A stretch of DNA of 47,259 bases from Anaerosinus sp. (GCA_029240055.1 JARBTT010000005.1:1-47259), one strand, 5' to 3'; shown: positions 4,049 through 11,483, numbered from the stretch's first letter. Made by a program: numbers and translations. The notes: generated from the letters alone by a model not told the origin.

Positions 4049-4729
4049 ATGAAGGTTCTATGCACTGCCAAACATCGCTTTATCGGCTTCCTAATACCAG
4101 CCATGTTACTGCTAGGCACCTTCGTATCTGTCCATACTCTGTCCCATACGCTAACGGGCAAAGTAATTGTCGTTGATGCCGGTCATGGCGGTATTGACCC
4201 TGGCGCCAATCGTTCAGGTGTGCTTGAAAAAGATATTAATCTGGCAATAGCGTTAGATCTTAAAGATATTCTCAATCAATACGGCTGTAAAGTTATCTTA
4301 TCCCGTCAAGCCGATGTAGATCTTAGTGGCGAATGTGACAATGAAAAAGTCAGAGGGCGCTATCATCGTGATTTGGCAGCGCGTGTAGAAATAGTCGAGG
4401 AATCAGACGCGGATTTATTTATTAGTATTCATGCTAATGCCGTCGCCAATGATGCGAAACGGCATGGAGCCGAGGTCTTTTACTATTCTAAGTCCGATAG
4501 TGGTAAAACATTAGCCAATTCAATACAAGGCGAACTTTGTAAGGTTACCGAAGCTAATAGAACTGCTAAGAATGCAGACTACTTTGTACTACGCCGTAAC
4601 AAAATCCCCGCGGCGCTGATTGAAGTCGGCTACATTACTAATATGGAGGAACGGATGGCACTACAAACCCCTGAATACCAAAAAAAGCTAGCTGAAGCAA
4701 TTGCCGTAGGTATTCATAAATATTATTAG
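4049..4729 (+). CDS. cwlD: N-acetylmuramoyl-L-alanine amidase CwlD
   Basis: Amidase_3 zinc amidase that cleaves the peptide from muramic acid. In spore formers CwlD starts the making of muramic-delta-lactam in the cortex. A signal/anchor segment spans about residues 11-32. The catalytic domain starts at VVDAGHGGIDPGA (zinc His46), continues with the zinc Glu in GVLEKDINLA and SIHANA (third zinc ligand), and ends with ALIEVGYITN carrying the catalytic Glu. Its 226-aa length and lack of a wall-binding domain fit CwlD rather than vegetative amidases. The ATG is the first in frame, since a TGA lies just upstream. AGGAG precedes it by about 12 nt. Confidence 0.9.
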   Translation: MKVLCTAKHRFIGFLIPAMLLLGTFVSVHTLSHTLTGKVIVVDAGHGGIDPGANRSGVLEKDINLAIALDLKDILNQYGCKVILSRQADVDLSGECDNEKVRGRYHRDLAARVEIVEESDADLFISIHANAVANDAKRHGAEVFYYSKSDSGKTLANSIQGELCKVTEANRTAKNADYFVLRRNKIPAALIEVGYITNMEERMALQTPEYQKKLAEAIAVGIHKYY

Positions 4730-5238: not shown

Positions 5239-5276
5239 GTGAAGAATATAGAACTTATTGTCCATCCGTCCTTCTA

Positions 5277-5392
5277 CCTCAATTATTTAAATTATTTTTA
5301 TCATAAATTTGTATAAAATCCATAATTTAGAGCATACTATCATTGAAGAACTCCACTTCGAACAAGACCACCAACCGTGTGGTCTTATTTTT
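5277..5392. repeat. Hairpin repeat, copy A (internally deleted)
   Basis: Shares its left arm (about 5311-5375) with copy B and its right hairpin (AAGACCAC, 7-nt loop, GTGGTCTT, then ATTTTT) with copy C. The roughly 125-nt central part present in B and C is missing. Weaker similarity to copy B continues left to about 5277. The IS3-family remnant starts immediately to the right. The plus-strand hairpin with T-run should work as a terminator. Confidence 0.8.
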
Positions 5393-5421
5393 GGAAAGGT
5401 CAAGAAAAAATAAACCCAAAG

Positions 5422-5940
5422 TTAAGGATTTTGACAATTCTGTAATTCAAATTGCTCTGGACTGAGCCATCCCAATGAGGAATGTATGCGTTTAGTATTA
5501 TAATAAATCTCAATATATTTAAATATTTCCATGCGAGCTTGTTCAGGATGATTGTCATAACAATCATCCTGAACAAGCTCGCGTTTTAATGTGCGATAAA
5601 ATGATTCCATTACGGCATTGTCATAGGGATTTCCTTTACGACTCATACTTTGTTGACAGCCATAGCGCTCTAATAAAGCTTGAAACCGCTGAGAAGTATA
5701 TTGAGCACCTCTATCGGTATGGACAATTAAACCCTCACTCGGATGTTGACGACCAATTGCTTGATAAAATGCTGATATAACAAGGCTGTCCCGAATTCGT
5801 GTATCCATAGACCAGCCAACTACTTTCCGCGAAAAAATATCAATAAAAACTGATAAATAAAGGAATCCATGACGAGTAGGTATATAAGTTATATCTCCTA
5901 CCCATATTTTGTTTTTATCAGTAATACTAAACCTGCTAAG
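5422..5940 (-). pseudogene. IS3-family transposase OrfB, 5'-truncated
   Basis: Integrase-core (rve) part of an IS3/IS150-group OrfB. The DDE residues are visible in WVGDITYIPT, IVHTDRGAQYTS and NAVMESFYRTLKREL, and the usual C-terminal YYNTKRIHSSLGWLSPEQFE follows. The N-terminal helix-turn-helix half is missing. The frame can be read upstream to an ATG at 5988. Those extra ~16 residues come from the neighbouring gene's stop region and terminator hairpin and are not transposase. A perfect 23-bp inverted repeat lies inside the frame at 5533-5582. Probably non-functional. Confidence 0.88.
5533..5582. repeat. Perfect 23-bp inverted repeat inside transposase frame
   Basis: Arms 5533-5555 and 5560-5582 are exact reverse complements around a 4-nt loop (cata). 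It lies in the segment encoding ELVQDDCYDNHPEQAR, where relatives carry a short variable stretch. No T-run follows, so it is not a standard terminator. Confidence 0.9.
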
Positions 5941-5942
5941 AA

Positions 5943-5962
5943 AAGCACCCCGAAGGGTGCTT
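5943..5962 (-). terminator. Intrinsic terminator of small phage gene
   Basis: AAGCACCC-cgaa-GGGTGCTT, an 8-bp GC-rich stem with a tetraloop. The minus-strand RNA continues with TTTTCTT. It follows the 53-codon gene ending at 5972 and lies at the broken end of the IS remnant. Confidence 0.8.
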
Positions 5963-5971
5963 AAAATAAAT

Positions 5972-6173
5972 TTATGGCATTTGATCAATCAGATATTCTT
6001 TATCTAGTTCTTTAAGCCTTTGCTCCGCCTGTTGGCGTGTTATACCAAGAGAAATATTACTATTATCCTTGATATTAATTAATATGTTACGTTGTTTGGC
6101 GTCGATAGGGGCTTGTTTTTTTAGCTCCTGCACCTTCGAGGTGGCCTCCGTGATTTATTTTTCTTATCGTCAT
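5972..6173 (-). pseudogene. Small prophage-type gene, apparently frameshifted
   Basis: A good start (AGGAGT then ATG at 6173) opens a frame beginning MTIRKI that soon runs out after 28 codons. A different frame, open from just downstream of that start, reads ITEATSKVQELKKQAP and continues to LDKEYLIDQMP at 5972. The simplest reading is one gene of about 65 residues with an indel in the A-rich stretch near 6150. An independent 53-aa gene from the GTG at 6133 is possible, since GGAGG lies 11 nt upstream. A GC-rich terminator follows. The family is not recognised. Confidence 0.5.
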
Positions 6174-6224
6174 AATTACTCCTATTGGTGAGTTGTTCGT
6201 GTCTTCCTACTTTTTTTACGCAAT

Positions 6225-6653
6225 TTACAATCCTTTTGATTTTTTTCTTCGACTTGCTCTTAATTTAATTATGTTTTTTAAATAACTTTTATGTAATATA
6301 TATTTTATGCGCTCAGGATGATTTAAAGCCCATTCGCGCGCACGCTCAAGTATTTTTTGACGTTTAGCAGAATTGCCATAATATGCACGTTTAAATGATT
6401 CACGCGTCTGTTCATTAGATTTATCTACAGCGCATTTTTTACAATATTTTTGTCGTCCTGCATTTATAGTGTACTCTTCGCCACATACAACACATATATC
6501 AGTTGTACCTAGTTTTCTTGCAGTTCCAGCTATTTTTCGTTGATACTTTTTTCGGTCGTTTTCTTTAATTTTTTCCGCTCGACATTTTGTGCAATATTTA
6601 GTCAGCGGTTGTCCAATAATTTCTATTCCGCAAATTACGCATTTTTTAATCAT
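6225..6653 (-). CDS. Prophage-type zinc-finger protein (142 aa)
   Basis: Contains two similar cysteine clusters: CVICGIEI...YCTKC (about residues 5-24) and CVVCGEEY...YCKKC (about 54-74). Each is a four-cysteine zinc-binding knuckle. A very basic helical C-terminus follows (RERAREWALNHPERIKYILHKSY...RRKKSKG). Such proteins often lie near the packaging genes of temperate phages and probably bind nucleic acid. I see no HNH catalytic motif. ATAAGGAG precedes the ATG. It is the last intact-looking gene of the prophage remnant on this strand. Confidence 0.6.
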   Translation of the reverse strand: MIKKCVICGIEIIGQPLTKYCTKCRAEKIKENDRKKYQRKIAGTARKLGTTDICVVCGEEYTINAGRQKYCKKCAVDKSNEQTRESFKRAYYGNSAKRQKILERAREWALNHPERIKYILHKSYLKNIIKLRASRRKKSKGL

Positions 6654-6765
6654 TAATCTTCTCCTTATTTGGCATCTGTCGCTGTCCTTTAACTTGATTC
6701 AAGCGTACCATATCAAAATTTGAACATCAACACTATTTTCAAATTAATATTCTTATATAAAGTAA

Positions 6766-6807
6766 TGATCGCTACCTAGTGCAAAGTAACGTACTTGGTA
6801 GCGATCA
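6766..6807 (-). terminator. Intrinsic terminator of RinA/ArpU-like gene
   Basis: A 15-bp inverted repeat with one mismatch (6766-6780 and 6793-6807), next to the stop codon at 6808-6810. Confidence 0.65.
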
Positions 6808-7216
6808 TCACTTATAAAATGGTGTCATTAAATCAAGTCCAACAGCGCAAAGACTATCGTATTGATTCCCCTCTTTAACCATCAAATAATACACATTCGG
6901 CGATATTGATAAATCTATACATATTTTTTTATAATCGTGATCACTATTATATTTTCTTTTCATGATTTCGCCAGTCATTTTTTTATCAAAATGCTTATAC
7001 GTATACTCAATTACTCTTAACCATTTTTCAGGTTCCTTAATCGTCATAGTATCAAACTTTCATGGCCATATTTTCTGTAGGATCACTCACAAATGCATGA
7101 CCACTACCACCAGTTTTACTAACTCCGCTATCCTTTCTAGCCTCATATACTGCTTGCTTAATTTTTTCGTATTGATAAAATATTTTCTCTATGTATTTCG
7201 CATTATATTTAAGCAA
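6808..7216 (-). pseudogene. RinA/ArpU-like phage late regulator, frameshifted
   Basis: Two adjacent frames look like one gene. The first half reads YEKIKQAVYEARKDSG and ends at SDPTENMAMK. The second reads FDTMTIKEPEKWLRVIEYTY and continues through the helix-turn-helix-like KKICIDLSISPNVYYLM. The halves join with a single +1 shift at ATGAAAGTTTGATACTATG near 7055; the first frame stops at once (AAAGTTTGA). The SDPT motif before a C-terminal sigma-like HTH is typical of phage RinA/ArpU regulators of late or packaging genes. A TTG start at 7216 after GAGGTG is the best-supported start. An upstream GTG at 7249 lacks a site. Confidence 0.6.
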
Positions 7217-7255
7217 ATTCTTCACCTCATCAAAAATCATTCTAAACACACTTAT

Positions 7256-7281
7256 AGGGCGGTCAAAAAGCCGCCCTTTTT
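7256..7281 (+). terminator. GC-rich hairpin with T-run
   Basis: AGGGCGG (7256-7262), 8-nt loop, CCGCCCT (7271-7277), then TTTT on the plus strand. It lies between two minus-strand phage genes, so it may also attenuate in that direction. Confidence 0.55.
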
Positions 7282-7440
7282 CTAGCTATCTATATTTGTA
7301 TTTTTAAAATCAATCTTTCGCTTACGATAATTACTTACATACATCTTCCTGGGTTTATTCAACCTTGATATATACCACCAATTTATTCCCGCAAATACCA
7401 CTAATATTGCAGCTACAGCAAATTCCATTCCTTCCGGCAT
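7282..7440 (-). CDS. Small prophage membrane protein (52 aa)
   Basis: ATG at 7440 follows an AGGTGG ribosome site. The product begins MPEGMEFAVAAILVVFAG: one transmembrane span (about residues 6-26), then a basic cytoplasmic tail (RLNKPRKMYVSNYRKRK). The gene sits between the zinc-ribbon and RinA/ArpU-like genes with tight spacing, as small genes do in phage early regions. The function is not recognised. Confidence 0.55.
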   Translation of the reverse strand: MPEGMEFAVAAILVVFAGINWWYISRLNKPRKMYVSNYRKRKIDFKNTNIDS

Positions 7441-7476
7441 TAACCTACCACCTTTCTATCACGCTGTCGTTGGCTC

Positions 7477-7656
7477 TTAGCAATGGTTTGGCATCTCTCC
7501 GAGCAATACAACCTTAGTCTTAGGAATCTGTACAAACACAGCCCCACACTTGGGATTAGCACACGTAGCGTAATGGCTCTGTTCACACTTAGCAGCTTCA
7601 TTTTCGGTATCAAGTGGATTACCACACAGTTCACATTTATAAATTAATTTGGGCAT
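7477..7656 (-). CDS. Zinc-ribbon prophage protein (59 aa)
   Basis: ATG at 7656 with GAGGTGG about 6 nt upstream. The product begins MPKLIYKCELCGNPLD. Cysteine pairs CELC and CANPKC, with a further single Cys between them, suggest one zinc ribbon. A longer frame reaches 7788 but runs through repeat copy B and lacks a start site, so I reject it. Small CxxC proteins of this kind are common in phage early operons. Its role is unknown. Confidence 0.6.
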   Translation of the reverse strand: MPKLIYKCELCGNPLDTENEAAKCEQSHYATCANPKCGAVFVQIPKTKVVLLGEMPNHC

Positions 7657-7701
7657 TTCTACCACCTCGATTATTTGAGTTGTTTTTTTGTCAATAATTT
7701 T

Positions 7702-7908
7702 GTATAAAATCCATAATTTAGAGCATACTATCATCGAAGAACTCCACTTCGAACAAGACCACCAACGGCGCTGGTCTTGTTCTCCCATTATAAATTGTAT
7801 AAGTCATAAATTATTAGATATACTAGCTTTATTAGGATCTACCGCAATAGATTCTATAAGTTTCTCTACTCCAAATAAGACCGCTAATCATGTGGTCTTA
7901 TTTTTTTT
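7702..7908. repeat. Hairpin repeat, copy B (full length)
   Basis: The most complete copy. It has a left arm (7702-7750), hairpin H1 (GAACAAGACCA / TGGTCTTGTTC, 7751-7761 and 7772-7782), a central AT-rich segment nearly identical to copy C, and hairpin H2 (7873-7882 and 7894-7903) followed by a T-run. Weaker similarity to copy A extends left to about 7664, over the ribosome site of the zinc-ribbon gene. H2 is a good plus-strand terminator. Confidence 0.85.
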
Positions 7909-8075
7909 CATAAAAAGCCTACATCATCAACACTTCGAGCCACTACATACATGCCACCATGCGATTCTATATCACTTTGAAATTCTTCTTGATATTCACT
8001 AAGTTGACCTTTAGGAGCTTTCACCTCTATGTACACTGTCTGCCCATCCTTGAGAGCAGTTAAGTCACTCAGGCC
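7908..8075 (-). pseudogene. VRR-NUC domain nuclease, C-terminal fragment
   Basis: The frame between TAA (8076-8078) and TGA (7908-7910) reads GLSDLTALKDGQTVYIEVKA, then LSEYQEEFQSDIESHGGMYVV. This is the core of a VRR-NUC fold: SDL supplies the Asp, and the E-x-K of YIEVK is the catalytic pair. About 30-40 N-terminal residues are missing and no start is present. It follows in frame after the stop of the small gene at 8076-8249, as expected if a deletion fused two phage genes. It ends at the edge of repeat copy B. Confidence 0.7.
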
Positions 8076-8249
8076 TTATGGCATCCAAGTCCTTGATGTA
8101 GTTGCTTTCATTCCGATTGCTAATGCAAACGCCTTAGAAGAATCAAACCCTTTTGCAATGCGAAGTTCTCTTAAAGCTACTCGCTTACTTGTTTCTTTAC
8201 GAGTAATACCAAAGTAGTCAGCAGGCACTCTTGCCGATGTAGTAAGCAT
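8076..8249 (-). CDS. Small prophage protein, HTH-like, probably truncated (57 aa)
   Basis: The ATG overlaps the stop of the LysM gene (TAATG), so translation is probably coupled. The product begins MLTTSARVPADYFGITRKET. The segment RELRIAKGFDSSKAFALAIG has the spacing of a helix-turn-helix. The frame ends at TAA right where a VRR-NUC fragment begins in the same frame, so the natural C-terminus was probably lost. Function unknown; DNA binding is inferred. Confidence 0.45.
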   Translation of the reverse strand: MLTTSARVPADYFGITRKETSKRVALRELRIAKGFDSSKAFALAIGMKATTSRTWMP

Positions 8250-8593
8250 TATTTATCATCCTTTCGTTCAATCCAATAATTGATTTTTATTTTATCGTTA
8301 GGATAAACATAATAATTACAATCACGACCTTTAAAAACATCATCATAATTAAGCTCAATAATTCCATACATGAACTCGCGAATTTCTCGAGGACCATATG
8401 TGTTTTTCTTCATATATGTATCTGCTATGGACCACAAGGTATCGCCACGTTCAACTGTATAAACGTCTTGAACTAATGCATATTTCGCATGGTTATCCTT
8501 AACTCCACCTGTTAAAACCAGCACACCACCAGCCATTAGGCAACCAATTACAAGTTTTTTTAAACCATTAACAACTTGCCGTCTTGCTAACAT
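8249..8593 (-). CDS. LysM-domain prophage protein with N-terminal membrane segment
   Basis: 114 aa. A hydrophobic N-terminal segment (about residues 13-30, VIGCLMAGGVLVLTGG) is followed by a LysM-type domain starting VYTVERGDTLWSIADTYM. It continues through a long loop to YVYPNDKIKINY, which matches the end of a LysM repeat. LysM binds N-acetylglucosamine in peptidoglycan. TAGGAG precedes the ATG. Its neighbours are small phage genes, so I read it as a prophage or moron gene rather than a housekeeping wall enzyme; no catalytic domain is present. Confidence 0.75.
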   Translation of the reverse strand: MLARRQVVNGLKKLVIGCLMAGGVLVLTGGVKDNHAKYALVQDVYTVERGDTLWSIADTYMKKNTYGPREIREFMYGIIELNYDDVFKGRDCNYYVYPNDKIKINYWIERKDDK

Positions 8594-8605
8594 GATTTCA
8601 CACTC

Positions 8606-8845
8606 CTATTCAGCACTACCGTCAATTTCTAATATATTCTCAACATCGCCATAATATTTTTCAACAACGATTGTTTCGCAAACTTCAACTTCTAGTGTAA
8701 TTCCAGCTACAAGAAATACTATCAAGCAGCTTTCACAAGGACCTTTCTTGAATTGAATATAAACGACGTCTTTTGCCTCGATATTAACTCCATTGACGAT
8801 TAATAACTGTGTGCTGTCGCGTAAAATCGCAACTAAATTTTTACT
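8606..8845 (-). pseudogene. Small prophage open frame lacking a start codon
   Basis: A 79-codon open frame contains LIVNGVNIEAKDVVYIQF, a CESC pair and an acidic C-terminus ending ILEIDGSAE. It is placed tightly before the LysM gene. No in-frame ATG, GTG or TTG precedes the conserved-looking part. An ATG at 8854 is in frame but is followed by TGG then TGA. A point mutation (TGA) or start loss would explain this. The family is not recognised. Confidence 0.4.
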
Positions 8846-8859
8846 TCACCACATTTGAG

Positions 8860-8896
8860 CCTGTCGCATATTTAACATCTTTGATGTTGCGACAGG
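8860..8896. repeat. Nested hairpin upstream of small phage frame
   Basis: Outer arms CCTGTCGCA (8860-8868) and TGCGACAGG (8888-8896) enclose an inner ACATC/GATGT pairing. No T-run follows. It may be an operator-like or RNA element. Confidence 0.5.
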
Positions 8897-8902
8897 TTAC
8901 TT

Positions 8903-9010
8903 TTACCCCCCCAATTTTTCAATGAGTTGACTCATTAATTTGGGATTATTACTGTTGTCCGGTTGAAAAACTCTAATCAACTCCGGCATTTGTCTTGGTC
9001 TTGCTGCCAT
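8903..9010 (-). CDS. Very small prophage protein (35 aa)
   Basis: The ATG at 9010 has a strong ribosome site (TAGGAGG, 7 nt). The peptide begins MAARPRQMPELIRVFQPDNS and ends KLMSQLIEKLGG: a basic start and an amphipathic end, with no membrane segment. The position just after the Cro-like remnant fits a phage early gene. The family is not recognised. Confidence 0.5.
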   Translation of the reverse strand: MAARPRQMPELIRVFQPDNSNNPKLMSQLIEKLGG

Positions 9011-9076
9011 GGTTGCACCTCCTATGCTGTGGTTTGGTCTGATAATCCAATTTTATAATCACTAGTTCACTTGTAT

Positions 9077-9278
9077 TTACGTCATTTTCTTTAATAAATT
9101 AAGATTAATATCCAAAACTGCAGCTAACTTAATAAGACTATTAACACTTGGTATATATCTATTATTCTCTAAATCAGAAATATACGGTCTACTTATATTG
9201 GTTTCTACTGATAATTCAGTTTGTGTCAACTTTTTATGAACTCTACTTTTCTTAATTAAACTTCCTAAGCTCTCTCAT
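9077..9278 (-). pseudogene. XRE-family (Cro/CI-like) regulator remnant
   Basis: A frame of about 65 codons reads SLIKKSRVHKKLTQTELSVE, then ISRPYISDLENNRYIPSVNS and LIKLAAVLDINLNLL. This is a full XRE helix-turn-helix with the usual recognition helix. There is no usable start in frame: the frame is preceded by TGA, and the only ATG (9276-9278) is one base out of phase. A single inserted base just after the start codon explains this. It lies divergent from the ImmA remnant, as at a phage lysogeny switch. Confidence 0.7.
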
Positions 9279-9379
9279 GTCGGATATATACTTCCTTTGT
9301 TTGTCATTAAATTGTATTCTCGCCACAAAGTCAAGCTTTTTTAATAGTATTTCCGTCAGTTATTGTTTATAATTAAATA

Positions 9380-9593
9380 ATGGATTGTGGGGACGTATAT
9401 TAAAACGGAATTATATAGTTATAAATAAAAACTTAAATCAATGGCAAAGGAAAGCTGTATTATGCCATGAACTTGCTCACTTTCTCTGTCATCGTAGTTA
9501 TGTAAGTTATGGCTGGACGCGCGTACCTTCTACTCTATCAAACGTTATGAAGATGAAGCTAATGCATTGTTGTTGAATTATTTTCTCATTTAA
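9380..9593 (+). pseudogene. ImmA/IrrE-family metallopeptidase remnant
   Basis: The first frame reads RNYIVINKNLNQWQRKAVLC, then HELAHFLCH with the HExxH zinc motif. After a shift near 9517 a second frame supplies ARTFYSIKRYEDEANALLL, the family's downstream helix with the third zinc ligand region. The N-terminal part is missing as well. ImmA-type peptidases cut phage or ICE repressors and normally follow the repressor gene. Here that repressor has been lost. Confidence 0.75.
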
Positions 9594-9649
9594 GCAGCTT
9601 AAAAAAAGAATATATCCTTCTCTTTTTAGAAGAAGGCTGGAAAAAATAA

Positions 9650-9680
9650 AACCTACAACTAATATTAATTAGTGTAGGTT
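9650..9680 (+). terminator. Possible terminator after ImmA remnant
   Basis: Arms 9650-9663 and 9668-9680 pair with one bulge (AACCTACA / TGTAGGTT core). No T-run follows, so function is uncertain. Confidence 0.35.
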
Positions 9681-9747
9681 ATCGTTATTCCCAGGGACTT
9701 TCGACAAAATTCGATAATATAGTACAAATACACCAGGAGATGATTAT

Positions 9748-10386
9748 ATGAAACGGACTTCACTATTACTTTTATTATTAATTGTATTATTTACCATTAA
9801 TCCAGCTGTAATCAAAGCTCAAACTCCCCCGCCCAATGTATTTATTATTAATCATAACTGGCCCGCAGATATGGAACCACCTTTCGGAAAGTATATGCAA
9901 ACAAAGATACAACAAACTCTTTTAAAAGAACCAGCTTCAACTAACGAAGTAGCTGTGCTTCATTCTGGCGATAAGGTGAGATTAATAACTTCAGAACTCT
10001 ATACTTATCCATCCAAATACCCTGTATATATCTCTACGTTACCTCCTAAGCTCCTAAATGCTCTTATAGCTATAAACGGGCAAAAAATTCTTCCTCGAGC
10101 TGGCGAATATATTTATCTCTTAAGTTATACCGGAGAAGGATTGTATATGGCTTGGTATGAAAATCAAATTTTATACCTACCTGGCGATGGCATACAAGGA
10201 CTTGCTGTAGGTTATCGTGGTGGAGATGAATTTCCTAATTGGGGCGATTATCGTTCTTCTGGATCTCCTGAAAGTGATCTTTGGATATGCCTTCTTAGAA
10301 CTGCAGATCAAAAGAAAGGCTGGGTTAAGTACAGCAGTTATAAAGATTGGCAAAAATTTGGATACAATATTTTTTCATTAAATTAA
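9748..10386 (+). CDS. Secreted protein of unknown function (212 aa)
   Basis: Clear signal peptide (residues 1 to about 24: basic start, LLLLLLIVLFTI core, cleavage near KAQ). The mature part contains a GDKVRL segment and a Y-I-Y-L-L-S-Y-T-G-E-G-L-Y-M-A-W-Y beta-strand pattern that may be a small SH3-like barrel; this is only an impression. It ends with KKGWVKYSSYKDW. AGGAG precedes the ATG. The next two plus-strand genes also encode exported proteins, so the three may form one cassette. Family not recognised. Confidence 0.7.
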   Translation: MKRTSLLLLLLIVLFTINPAVIKAQTPPPNVFIINHNWPADMEPPFGKYMQTKIQQTLLKEPASTNEVAVLHSGDKVRLITSELYTYPSKYPVYISTLPPKLLNALIAINGQKILPRAGEYIYLLSYTGEGLYMAWYENQILYLPGDGIQGLAVGYRGGDEFPNWGDYRSSGSPESDLWICLLRTADQKKGWVKYSSYKDWQKFGYNIFSLN

Positions 10387-10468
10387 GTAAATTAAAGGCT
10401 TGCACTATGTTCTAATATAATTAATTCAAAAATAAAGAGATCTGTAATTCGTATTAGGAGGTTGAATT

Positions 10469-11104
10469 ATGTTAAGATTAATTCCCAAAATTTTCACTAT
10501 CGTAATAACATGTCTAGTATTTTTTACCTCTTTCGCTTCTGCCAGAACACTTGCAGAAGTACAACTTGATTACATAGAAGGCGATTGGTACGATGCTTCC
10601 AATACCTTATATGCTTCGATCCATAATGGTTATTTTAATTCCTGTTTAATTCAGCCTCTTACTGCAGCTGGTGGCCCTGCTAATTTTTCTATGAAAATTC
10701 AAATACAAGAAAATCTAGGATATCGCCATATTACTTTAAACTTTTCAAATCTTAGAGAAGGACGTTCTGAACAATCAAATCCGCTTTTTAAACCCTTTGT
10801 ATCCATAGATTCTGTAGTAGTACATAAGAAGAATTTTATTGTTCCAGACAATATTGATCAATTTTTATACGGTGAATGGTACGACAACAATGGTAATCTT
10901 ATAGCAACGATCAAAGATGGCCAATTCAATGGGGCAAATATGATCTTTACAAGCTTTTATGGCGTAGCAGACCACTTTGTAGCTACGATTCAGATAAATG
11001 ATGGTAATAAATATAATTATTATAGTATTGGACTATCGAACATGAAATTGAGCATAGATAATCTATCGGATAGAACATACAATTATTCGCTTTATAAAAA
11101 CTAA
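10469..11104 (+). CDS. Secreted protein with two tandem repeat domains (211 aa)
   Basis: The signal peptide (residues 1 to about 25) ends in SASA. The mature protein looks like two copies of a domain of about 80-90 residues. Copy one has YIEGDWYDASNTLYASIHNG and then YRHITLNFSNL. Copy two has LYGEWYDNNGNLIATIKDG and then YYSIGLSNM. The shared pattern G-(D/E)-W-Y-D-x-x-x-x-L-x-A-(S/T)-I-x-(N/D)-G suggests a beta-rich fold. A strong AGGAGG lies before the ATG. Function unknown; the cell surface or envelope is the likely site of action. Confidence 0.72.
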   Translation: MLRLIPKIFTIVITCLVFFTSFASARTLAEVQLDYIEGDWYDASNTLYASIHNGYFNSCLIQPLTAAGGPANFSMKIQIQENLGYRHITLNFSNLREGRSEQSNPLFKPFVSIDSVVVHKKNFIVPDNIDQFLYGEWYDNNGNLIATIKDGQFNGANMIFTSFYGVADHFVATIQINDGNKYNYYSIGLSNMKLSIDNLSDRTYNYSLYKN

Positions 11105-11118
11105 GGATGGTACTTATT

Positions 11119-11281
11119 GTGAAAAAACTATTAACTTCACTAATGGCAGTTATGGTCGTACTTTTAGTTGTCTCCCCTATTACCTTTGCAAGTGAAATGA
11201 AAGAATACCGCAATGATAATGAGCATTATAGCTTTCTGATCCCAAATGATTTTAAGTTTCAAGATTTCAAAATAGACAATC
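11119..11281 (+). pseudogene. Secreted protein gene, truncated by repeat copy C
   Basis: A GTG start at 11119 (AAGGATGG upstream) opens a signal peptide, MKKLLTSLMAVMVVLLVVSP, cleaved near TFAS. A short mature stretch follows, EYRNDNEHYSFLIPNDFKF, which looks like the start of a larger beta-domain. At base 11282 the sequence switches to repeat copy C. The remaining 17 codons to the stop are repeat sequence, so the natural C-terminal part is gone. An ATG at 11107 overlaps the ribosome site and is less likely. Confidence 0.65.
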
Positions 11282-11446
11282 CCACTTCGAACAAGACCAC
11301 CAACGCCGCTGGTCTTGTTCCCCCATTATAAATTGTATAAGTCATAAATTATTGGATATACTAGCTTTATTAGGATCTACCGCAATAGATTCTATAAGTT
11401 TCTCTACTCCATGCAAGACCACCAACCGTGTGGTCTTATTTTTTTG
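11282..11446. repeat. Hairpin repeat, copy C (left arm missing)
   Basis: Begins abruptly at CCACTTCG inside the truncated secreted-protein gene. It has hairpin H1 (11289-11299 and 11310-11320), the central segment almost identical to copy B, and hairpin H2 (AAGACCAC / GTGGTCTT, 11415-11422 and 11430-11437) with a T-run. H2 would terminate the secreted-protein transcript. Confidence 0.85.
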
Positions 11447-11447
11447 T

Positions 11448-11483
11448 ATAAAAAAACACCTACCTCATTGCTTTGAGATAGGC
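11448..11483 (-). terminator. Intrinsic terminator of the P-loop/Asp23 gene
   Basis: Minus-strand RNA: GCCTATCTC, 8-nt loop, GAGGTAGGT, then a run of T. Arms 11475-11483 and 11458-11466. Confidence 0.75.

Follow-up and report, generated by a model that had tools for sequence, protein, structure and literature searches.

The window analysed here, a stretch of 47,259 nucleotides (nt) from Anaerosinus sp. (GCA_029240055.1 JARBTT010000005.1:1-47259), is part of a 2.86-Mb draft genome that is 84% complete (labelled G000). Between 5,277 and 11,446 it contains three copies, A, B and C, of a modular hairpin repeat, and these repeats are very probably genes for small RNAs (sRNAs). Their promoters strongly suggest transcription by the forespore sigma factors F and/or G, which would confine synthesis of the RNAs to the developing spore. 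Overall, the repeats are read with reasonable confidence as genes for forespore-expressed antisense RNAs that would pair with Shine-Dalgarno (SD) sequences, and temperate phages carry some of these genes. Support is good for the anatomy of the RNA genes and for their link to sporulation; the expression and the targets of the RNAs we infer.

Anatomy of the repeat units

The first-pass annotation had described three copies with common modules, and these were found far beyond chance. In BLAST comparisons A (5276-5389) and B (7664-7781) were 87% identical (E 4e-36), and B (7744-7927) and C (11282-11468) 91% identical (E 7e-72). No further true copy was present elsewhere in the draft genome. The copies stood as described, with some corrections to their layout. 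Copy A has at its 3' end an H2-type hairpin (AAGACCACCAACCGTGTGGTCTTATTTTT), identical to H2 of C; it is therefore a left arm joined directly to H2, the centre having been lost. Copy C has no left arm; an exported-protein open reading frame (ORF) that begins at 11107 is cut short at the junction, about 11282. Copy B consists of two parallel tandem units, 7702-7787 and 7797-7908. The central segment of about 90 nt is the promoter and leader of the second unit, parallel to the first. Copy A thus reads as one gene, B as two tandem genes and C as an intact gene preceded by a unit that has no promoter:

5311-5339, + strand: promoter of unit A (GTATA 5311-5315, N17, CATACTA 5333-5339), exact sigma-G consensus
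5340-5392, + strand: RNA of unit A, about 46 nt (CUCC 5351-5354; terminator stem 5364-5371/5379-5386; T-run to 5392)
7702-7730, + strand: promoter of unit B1 (GTATA 7702-7706, N17, CATACTA 7724-7730), exact sigma-G consensus
7731-7787, + strand: RNA of unit B1 (CUCC 7742-7745; H1 stem 7751-7761/7772-7782; poor U-tract)
7797-7825, + strand: promoter of unit B2 (GTATA 7797-7801, N17, TATACTA 7819-7825), a weaker match than the others
7826-7908, + strand: RNA of unit B2, about 76 nt (5' hairpin; UUUCUCUACUCC with CUCC 7869-7872; H2 terminator 7874-7902; T-run to 7908)
11282-11325, + strand: remnant C1 (H1 hairpin 11289-11320), promoterless, fused to the truncated exported-protein ORF (from 11107)
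11335-11363, + strand: promoter of unit C2 (GTATA 11335-11339, N17, TATACTA 11357-11363)
11364-11446, + strand: RNA of unit C2, about 76 nt (5' hairpin; CUCC 11407-11410; terminator 11415-11437; T-run to 11446)

Every intact unit has a GTATA-N17-(C/T)ATACTA promoter, a pyrimidine-rich leader with a CUCC that is predicted to be unpaired (98% in unit A), a terminator hairpin (H1 or H2) and, except for B1, a U-tract. A good U-tract follows the hairpin in A, B2 and C2 but is missing after H1 in B and in C (GTTCTCCC, GTTCCCCC), and the poor U-tract of B1 makes read-through into B2 plausible. The promoter of unit A has no mismatch and was equalled by 0.8% of dinucleotide shuffles, that of B1 by none of 500. 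The C2 promoter also reads GGATATACTA, with one mismatch to the sigma-F consensus, and none of 500 shuffles was as good for sigma-F. For C1 the promoter-match scan gave no good promoter. A covariance model of promoter, leader and terminator (R2) scored units A, B1, B2 and C2 with 62.6, 69.1, 84.7 and 86.0 bits, respectively. The earlier idea of a terminator cassette was right only insofar as both hairpins, H1 and H2, are intrinsic terminators; it had missed the promoter ahead of each.

We propose that A, B1 with B2, and C2 are paralogues that encode very small RNAs (about 45-80 nt) and that C1 is a dead remnant. In the simplest history, the A and C variants would have arisen by local duplication and recombination or deletion between the near-identical terminators.

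Homologues and the link to sporulation

When copy B was compared with 60 relatives, its H1 hairpin matched in Pelosinus-type, Propionispora-type and other genomes, and G003 matched its second half. The loci of the relatives have a common order of elements: GTATA...GGNAATAMTA, a small hairpin (CAGG-UGA-CCRY-loop-RYGG-AG-CCUG), a C/U-rich stretch and a terminator hairpin (AACAAGACCA...UGGUCUUGUU with a U-tract). Homologues with this layout occur at more than 40 places in the Negativicutes, including Pelosinus and Propionispora; we take this to be the class to which these genera and the source genome belong. The sequence is present in relatives and phages, and not only at three sites of one vertically inherited block. 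A genome can hold as many as 11 model matches, and the tandem arrays comprise 2-4 units. G306 has 11 matches, three of them in 1.35 kb, and the homology among its copies is limited to the gene and about 20 nt upstream. Three matches lie within 840 nt in G045, four in 680 nt on the phage contig L124, and G037 has a tandem pair 30 nt apart, arranged as in copy B. Pelosinus has one copy of the gene, whose flanks are partly conserved; the P. fermentans JBW45 locus is NZ_CP010978 2573922-2574052, with GGCAATAATA about 7 nt upstream of the predicted RNA start.

The RNA structure is supported by covariation. Five base pairs of the 5' hairpin have changes on both sides among the first six homologues, 99% of the cells pair versus 28-50% in slid controls, and the covariation score exceeded all 500 shuffles. 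The terminator stem covaries too (20 members). The exact pattern of the window's left arm gave no match in viral and genome contig collections; the hairpin pattern scan did retrieve Pelosinus and Propionispora. Rfam scans of the window region, nine relatives' loci and nine further loci gave no relevant match. Discarded were an R2 match in the source genome (C266:8989) without promoter or CUCC and partial matches in L107, L104 and L117; pattern matches in L125, L126, L128, L132 and L133, without covariance-model support, were taken as chance.

Two observations were made at the relatives' loci. In the hairpin-bearing subfamily (L011-L016, L018, L029) a palindrome, TGTGTACACA / TGTGCACA, lies a few nt downstream of the -10 element; it may be an operator or may belong to the RNA. 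A repeat-rich protein of spore-coat-like appearance adjoins the sRNA genes at L040 2386-2658 (G306) and L014 ~798-1070 (P. propionicus), with MYKDWEEPEIIDWESD... and MGYRKWGHPEIEDWKED..., respectively.

The promoters were compared with the B. subtilis consensus sequences, which are GTATA / GGNAANAMTR for sigma-F and GNATA / CAWAMTA for sigma-G (PMC3416734 Table 4). In C. difficile, a G upstream of the -10 marks sigma-F and an A downstream marks sigma-G (PMC3789822). Most of the relatives' promoters have 0 or 1 mismatches to sigma-F, and sigma-F/G matches as good as those of the family are rare in shuffles. GNATA-N17/18-NATAMTA was present without mismatch at 45 of 63 sRNA matches, at 7 of 23 genes for small acid-soluble spore proteins (SASPs) and in 2.4% of random 190-nt windows. 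As a positive control, promoters of this type were also found at the expected distance from many SASP genes in nine genomes. The source genome has a spore sigma factor and a SASP gene, with GTATA-N18-GATAATA 44 nt upstream of the match; spore_sigG itself was not found in the 84%-complete draft, where the sole match was of the sigma-F type (C23).

The class-wide scan covered 381 Negativicutes genomes, 55 with spore_sigG/sigF-type sigma factors and 326 without. R2 matched in 22, all of them among the 55 and none among the 326, and a model of hairpin and terminator (R1) matched at E<1e-4 in 14/55 versus 0/326 (Fisher 4e-13); these genomes share ancestry and are not independent observations. With laxer filters, R2 matched in 23/55 sporulators versus 0/25 non-sporulators. 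In a sample of 399 genomes across the phylum, there was no match outside the source genome at E<=0.001. R1 matches at E ~0.001-0.01 in non-sporulators were taken as chance, and the two that were viewed (L034, L035) had no promoter. A strict promoter-to-terminator pattern matched in 9/55 genomes, with about as many matches of the reversed pattern, and was therefore not used alone as evidence. Taken together, control of the RNA genes by a forespore sigma factor is likely.

Leader motif and alternative readings

Of 39 leaders extracted, 31 contain CUCC, or 32 if the L029 leader, which had been mis-cut, is included after inspection by eye; 6.8 were expected, and the maximum in 2000 shuffles was 14. 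The commonest 6-mer of the leaders is UCUCCU, and CUCC is predicted to be unpaired (mean 0.91). C-rich motifs of Listeria LhrC and of several Staphylococcus and Bacillus sRNAs block SD sequences (PMC4132741). UCUCCU is complementary to the SD sequence GGAGG, and by this analogy we lean slightly towards SD pairing as the mechanism of the RNAs. In the proposed scheme sigma F/G would transcribe the units in the forespore, and the unpaired CUCC would pair with the GGAGG of mRNAs and block their translation.

Several points weigh against this reading. Expression in the forespore is predicted, and the CU-rich leaders may bind a protein instead of mRNA. The B2 promoter match is modest (2-5% of shuffles are as good), and the short sequences give modest E-values. 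Shared ancestry inflates the counts that associate the family with sporulation. The leader motif is partly built into R2; members retrieved by the terminator alone, with the copy B query in the 60 relatives, likewise show it. R2 did not match in 33 of the 55 sporulators (32 with laxer filters), so the family is either not essential for sporulation or too diverged to be detected.

Transcription of the same RNA genes by a housekeeping or stress sigma factor, without a special tie to sporulation, would fit the general knowledge that NATAMTA is similar to a -10 of TATAAT and that sigma-B-type promoters look alike. The -35 element is GTATA, however, and not TTGACA, the spacing is constant in almost all members, SASP genes carry the same promoter type and none of the 326 genomes without spore sigma factors matched, which makes this improbable. 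Transposase-driven spread of a non-autonomous mobile element of the MITE or REP kind, as had been considered for the window, might account for the dispersal, for the 11 matches in G306 and for the broken genes that often adjoin the copies. We regard it as very improbable because the only inverted repeats seen at the copies are the hairpins, promoter and terminator are conserved and the family is confined to sporulators. No close relative with an empty site came to light, although empty sites could not be searched for. Within a genome the copies are about 70-90% identical, and their homology coincides with the gene from promoter to T-run, plus about 20 nt upstream. A hairpin followed by a terminator is also a common riboswitch shape, but that the units are cis-acting leaders (riboswitches or attenuators) is hardly credible: the loci have no downstream gene in common, several have none on the same strand, Rfam gave no match and the tandem units are self-contained.

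A reading that keeps the RNA genes and their timing takes the CU-rich leader as a decoy or ligand for an Hfq- or CsrA-like RNA-binding protein. Short multicopy RNAs with repeated short motifs do resemble decoys of the CsrB/RsmX type (PMC4132741), and CsfG, an sRNA of spore-formers, co-purifies with Hfq (PMC3574147). The recurring motif, however, is specifically UCUCCU, the complement of GGAGG, and C-rich motifs of the Gram-positive lineage have been shown to pair with SD sequences (PMC4132741). We consider a protein ligand unlikely.

Phage copies, surroundings and related systems

In G306 the copies adjoin phage genes (DNA polymerase, cytosine methylase, DnaB, RusA, YopX-type) and in G003 tail-fibre genes. 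Pattern scans and R2 found the gene on six IMG/VR phage contigs, two of which correspond to G306 regions at 100%. The contigs checked carry anti-repressor, repressor, replication initiator, DNA polymerase and exonuclease genes. At L102, L124, L127 and L130 the unit stands between phage genes with its own promoter and terminator, as a moron does, and L130, L131 and L134 are mosaic relatives that all have the gene. The single Pelosinus copy with partly conserved flanks and the phage copies together indicate a family that is both host- and phage-carried. The suggestion of a phage-derived structured RNA had come nearest, since the units encode RNAs, a decayed prophage surrounds copy B and temperate-phage contigs contain homologues. 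On phage genomes the unit would act like a moron, lying among the phage genes but transcribed on its own, and during sporulation of a lysogen its RNA would silence phage or host messages in the spore. That the phage benefits from the RNAs is a tentative idea. Equally speculative, temperate phages of spore-forming Negativicutes might carry arrayed RNA morons whose activity is confined to the forespore and whose anti-SD motif shuts down translation of phage lytic and/or host messages; if true, this would be a phage-encoded RNA programme for survival inside spores.

The neighbours of all three copies are broken, as the first-pass annotation had reported: an IS3-type transposase fragment at A, a frame-broken VRR-NUC gene at B and a truncated exported-protein gene before C. 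Copy B is assigned to a decayed prophage by its position between a Zn-ribbon ORF and the VRR-NUC gene, near LysM, repressor and ImmA genes:

6980-9590: decayed prophage around copy B
7477-7656, - strand: Zn-ribbon ORF
~7917-8249, - strand: broken VRR-NUC gene
8249-8593, - strand: LysM phage-family protein
~9075-9290, - strand: helix-turn-helix repressor
~9380-9570, + strand: ImmA/IrrE fragment
4049-4729, + strand: CwlD-like spore cortex amidase adjoining the region (202 bits, below the NCBIfam cut-off of 221.55)

The transposase fragment (5422-5988) contains a perfect 23-bp inverted repeat with a 4-nt loop at 5533-5582, which is unusual in coding DNA and may reflect a small palindromic insertion or a fold-back in the assembly. 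Sub-threshold Rfam matches to MIR2600 and SpF19 fall on this palindrome and were rejected. An imperfect 21-bp inverted repeat with a 12-nt loop (GATCGCTACC...) at 6753-6817, among the decayed prophage genes, is not a clear terminator and is not a known RNA. The exported-protein gene start at 11107-11281 encodes a signal peptide and is truncated by unit C1; upstream of it lie two intact exported proteins (9748-10386 and 10469-11104) without Pfam matches.

Among known systems CsfG is the closest in biology and LhrC the closest in architecture. CsfG is restricted to the forespore under sigma F and G, occurs only in spore-formers, is CU-rich in loops and between helices and has no known target (PMC9147052, PMC3574147). 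It belongs to the ylbG-ylbH region of Bacillaceae, where the Rfam model RF00516 'ylbH' is annotated on the opposite strand. The family described here resembles it, at the sequence level, in the sigma F/G-type promoter and in CU-rich stretches predicted to be unpaired, but its members have 45-100 nt and are often multicopy and partly phage-borne, whereas CsfG is a single RNA of 136 nt in B. subtilis. RF00516 exceeded its cut-off in 0 of 12 sporulating Negativicutes and was found in B. subtilis; no Rfam family, RF00516 included, matched the window units at E<=1. LhrC1-5 of Listeria likewise are several near-identical copies, including a cluster, with their own promoters and a repeated CUCC(C) that blocks SD sequences (PMC4132741); Listeria, however, is a non-sporulating genus in which LisRK drives LhrC. 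A stand-alone gene with promoter and intrinsic terminator and a CUCC/UCCC predicted to be accessible, as in the LhrC/RsaE/FsrA type, are both present here. The sspC gene of SP-beta is also a sigma-G-dependent prophage gene with a forespore promoter (PMC8270828), but its product is a protein and not an RNA. Phages also carry sigF/sigG homologues (PMC9429907), a different means that acts at the same stage as the phage-borne RNA units.

The absence of an Rfam match and the mismatch to the CsfG model point to a new sRNA family of a kind already known, with phage-borne forespore arrays as a new variant. The literature search found no paper on sporulation sRNAs in Negativicutes; the family appears to be undescribed and, in the sampled genomes, confined to spore-forming Negativicutes and some of their viruses. 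It can be annotated directly with the covariance model and the consensus GTATA-N14/15-GGNNATAMTA ... UCUCCU ... AACAAGRYCA-terminator. Post-transcriptional control in the forespore is almost unexplored, and the family offers over 40 homologous genes whose promoter is clear, together with a candidate motif for pairing, natural tandem arrays and, in cultivable Pelosinus, single-copy genes. In conclusion, the phage copies suggest that prophages exploit the spore sigma factors of their hosts for regulatory RNAs in dormancy.

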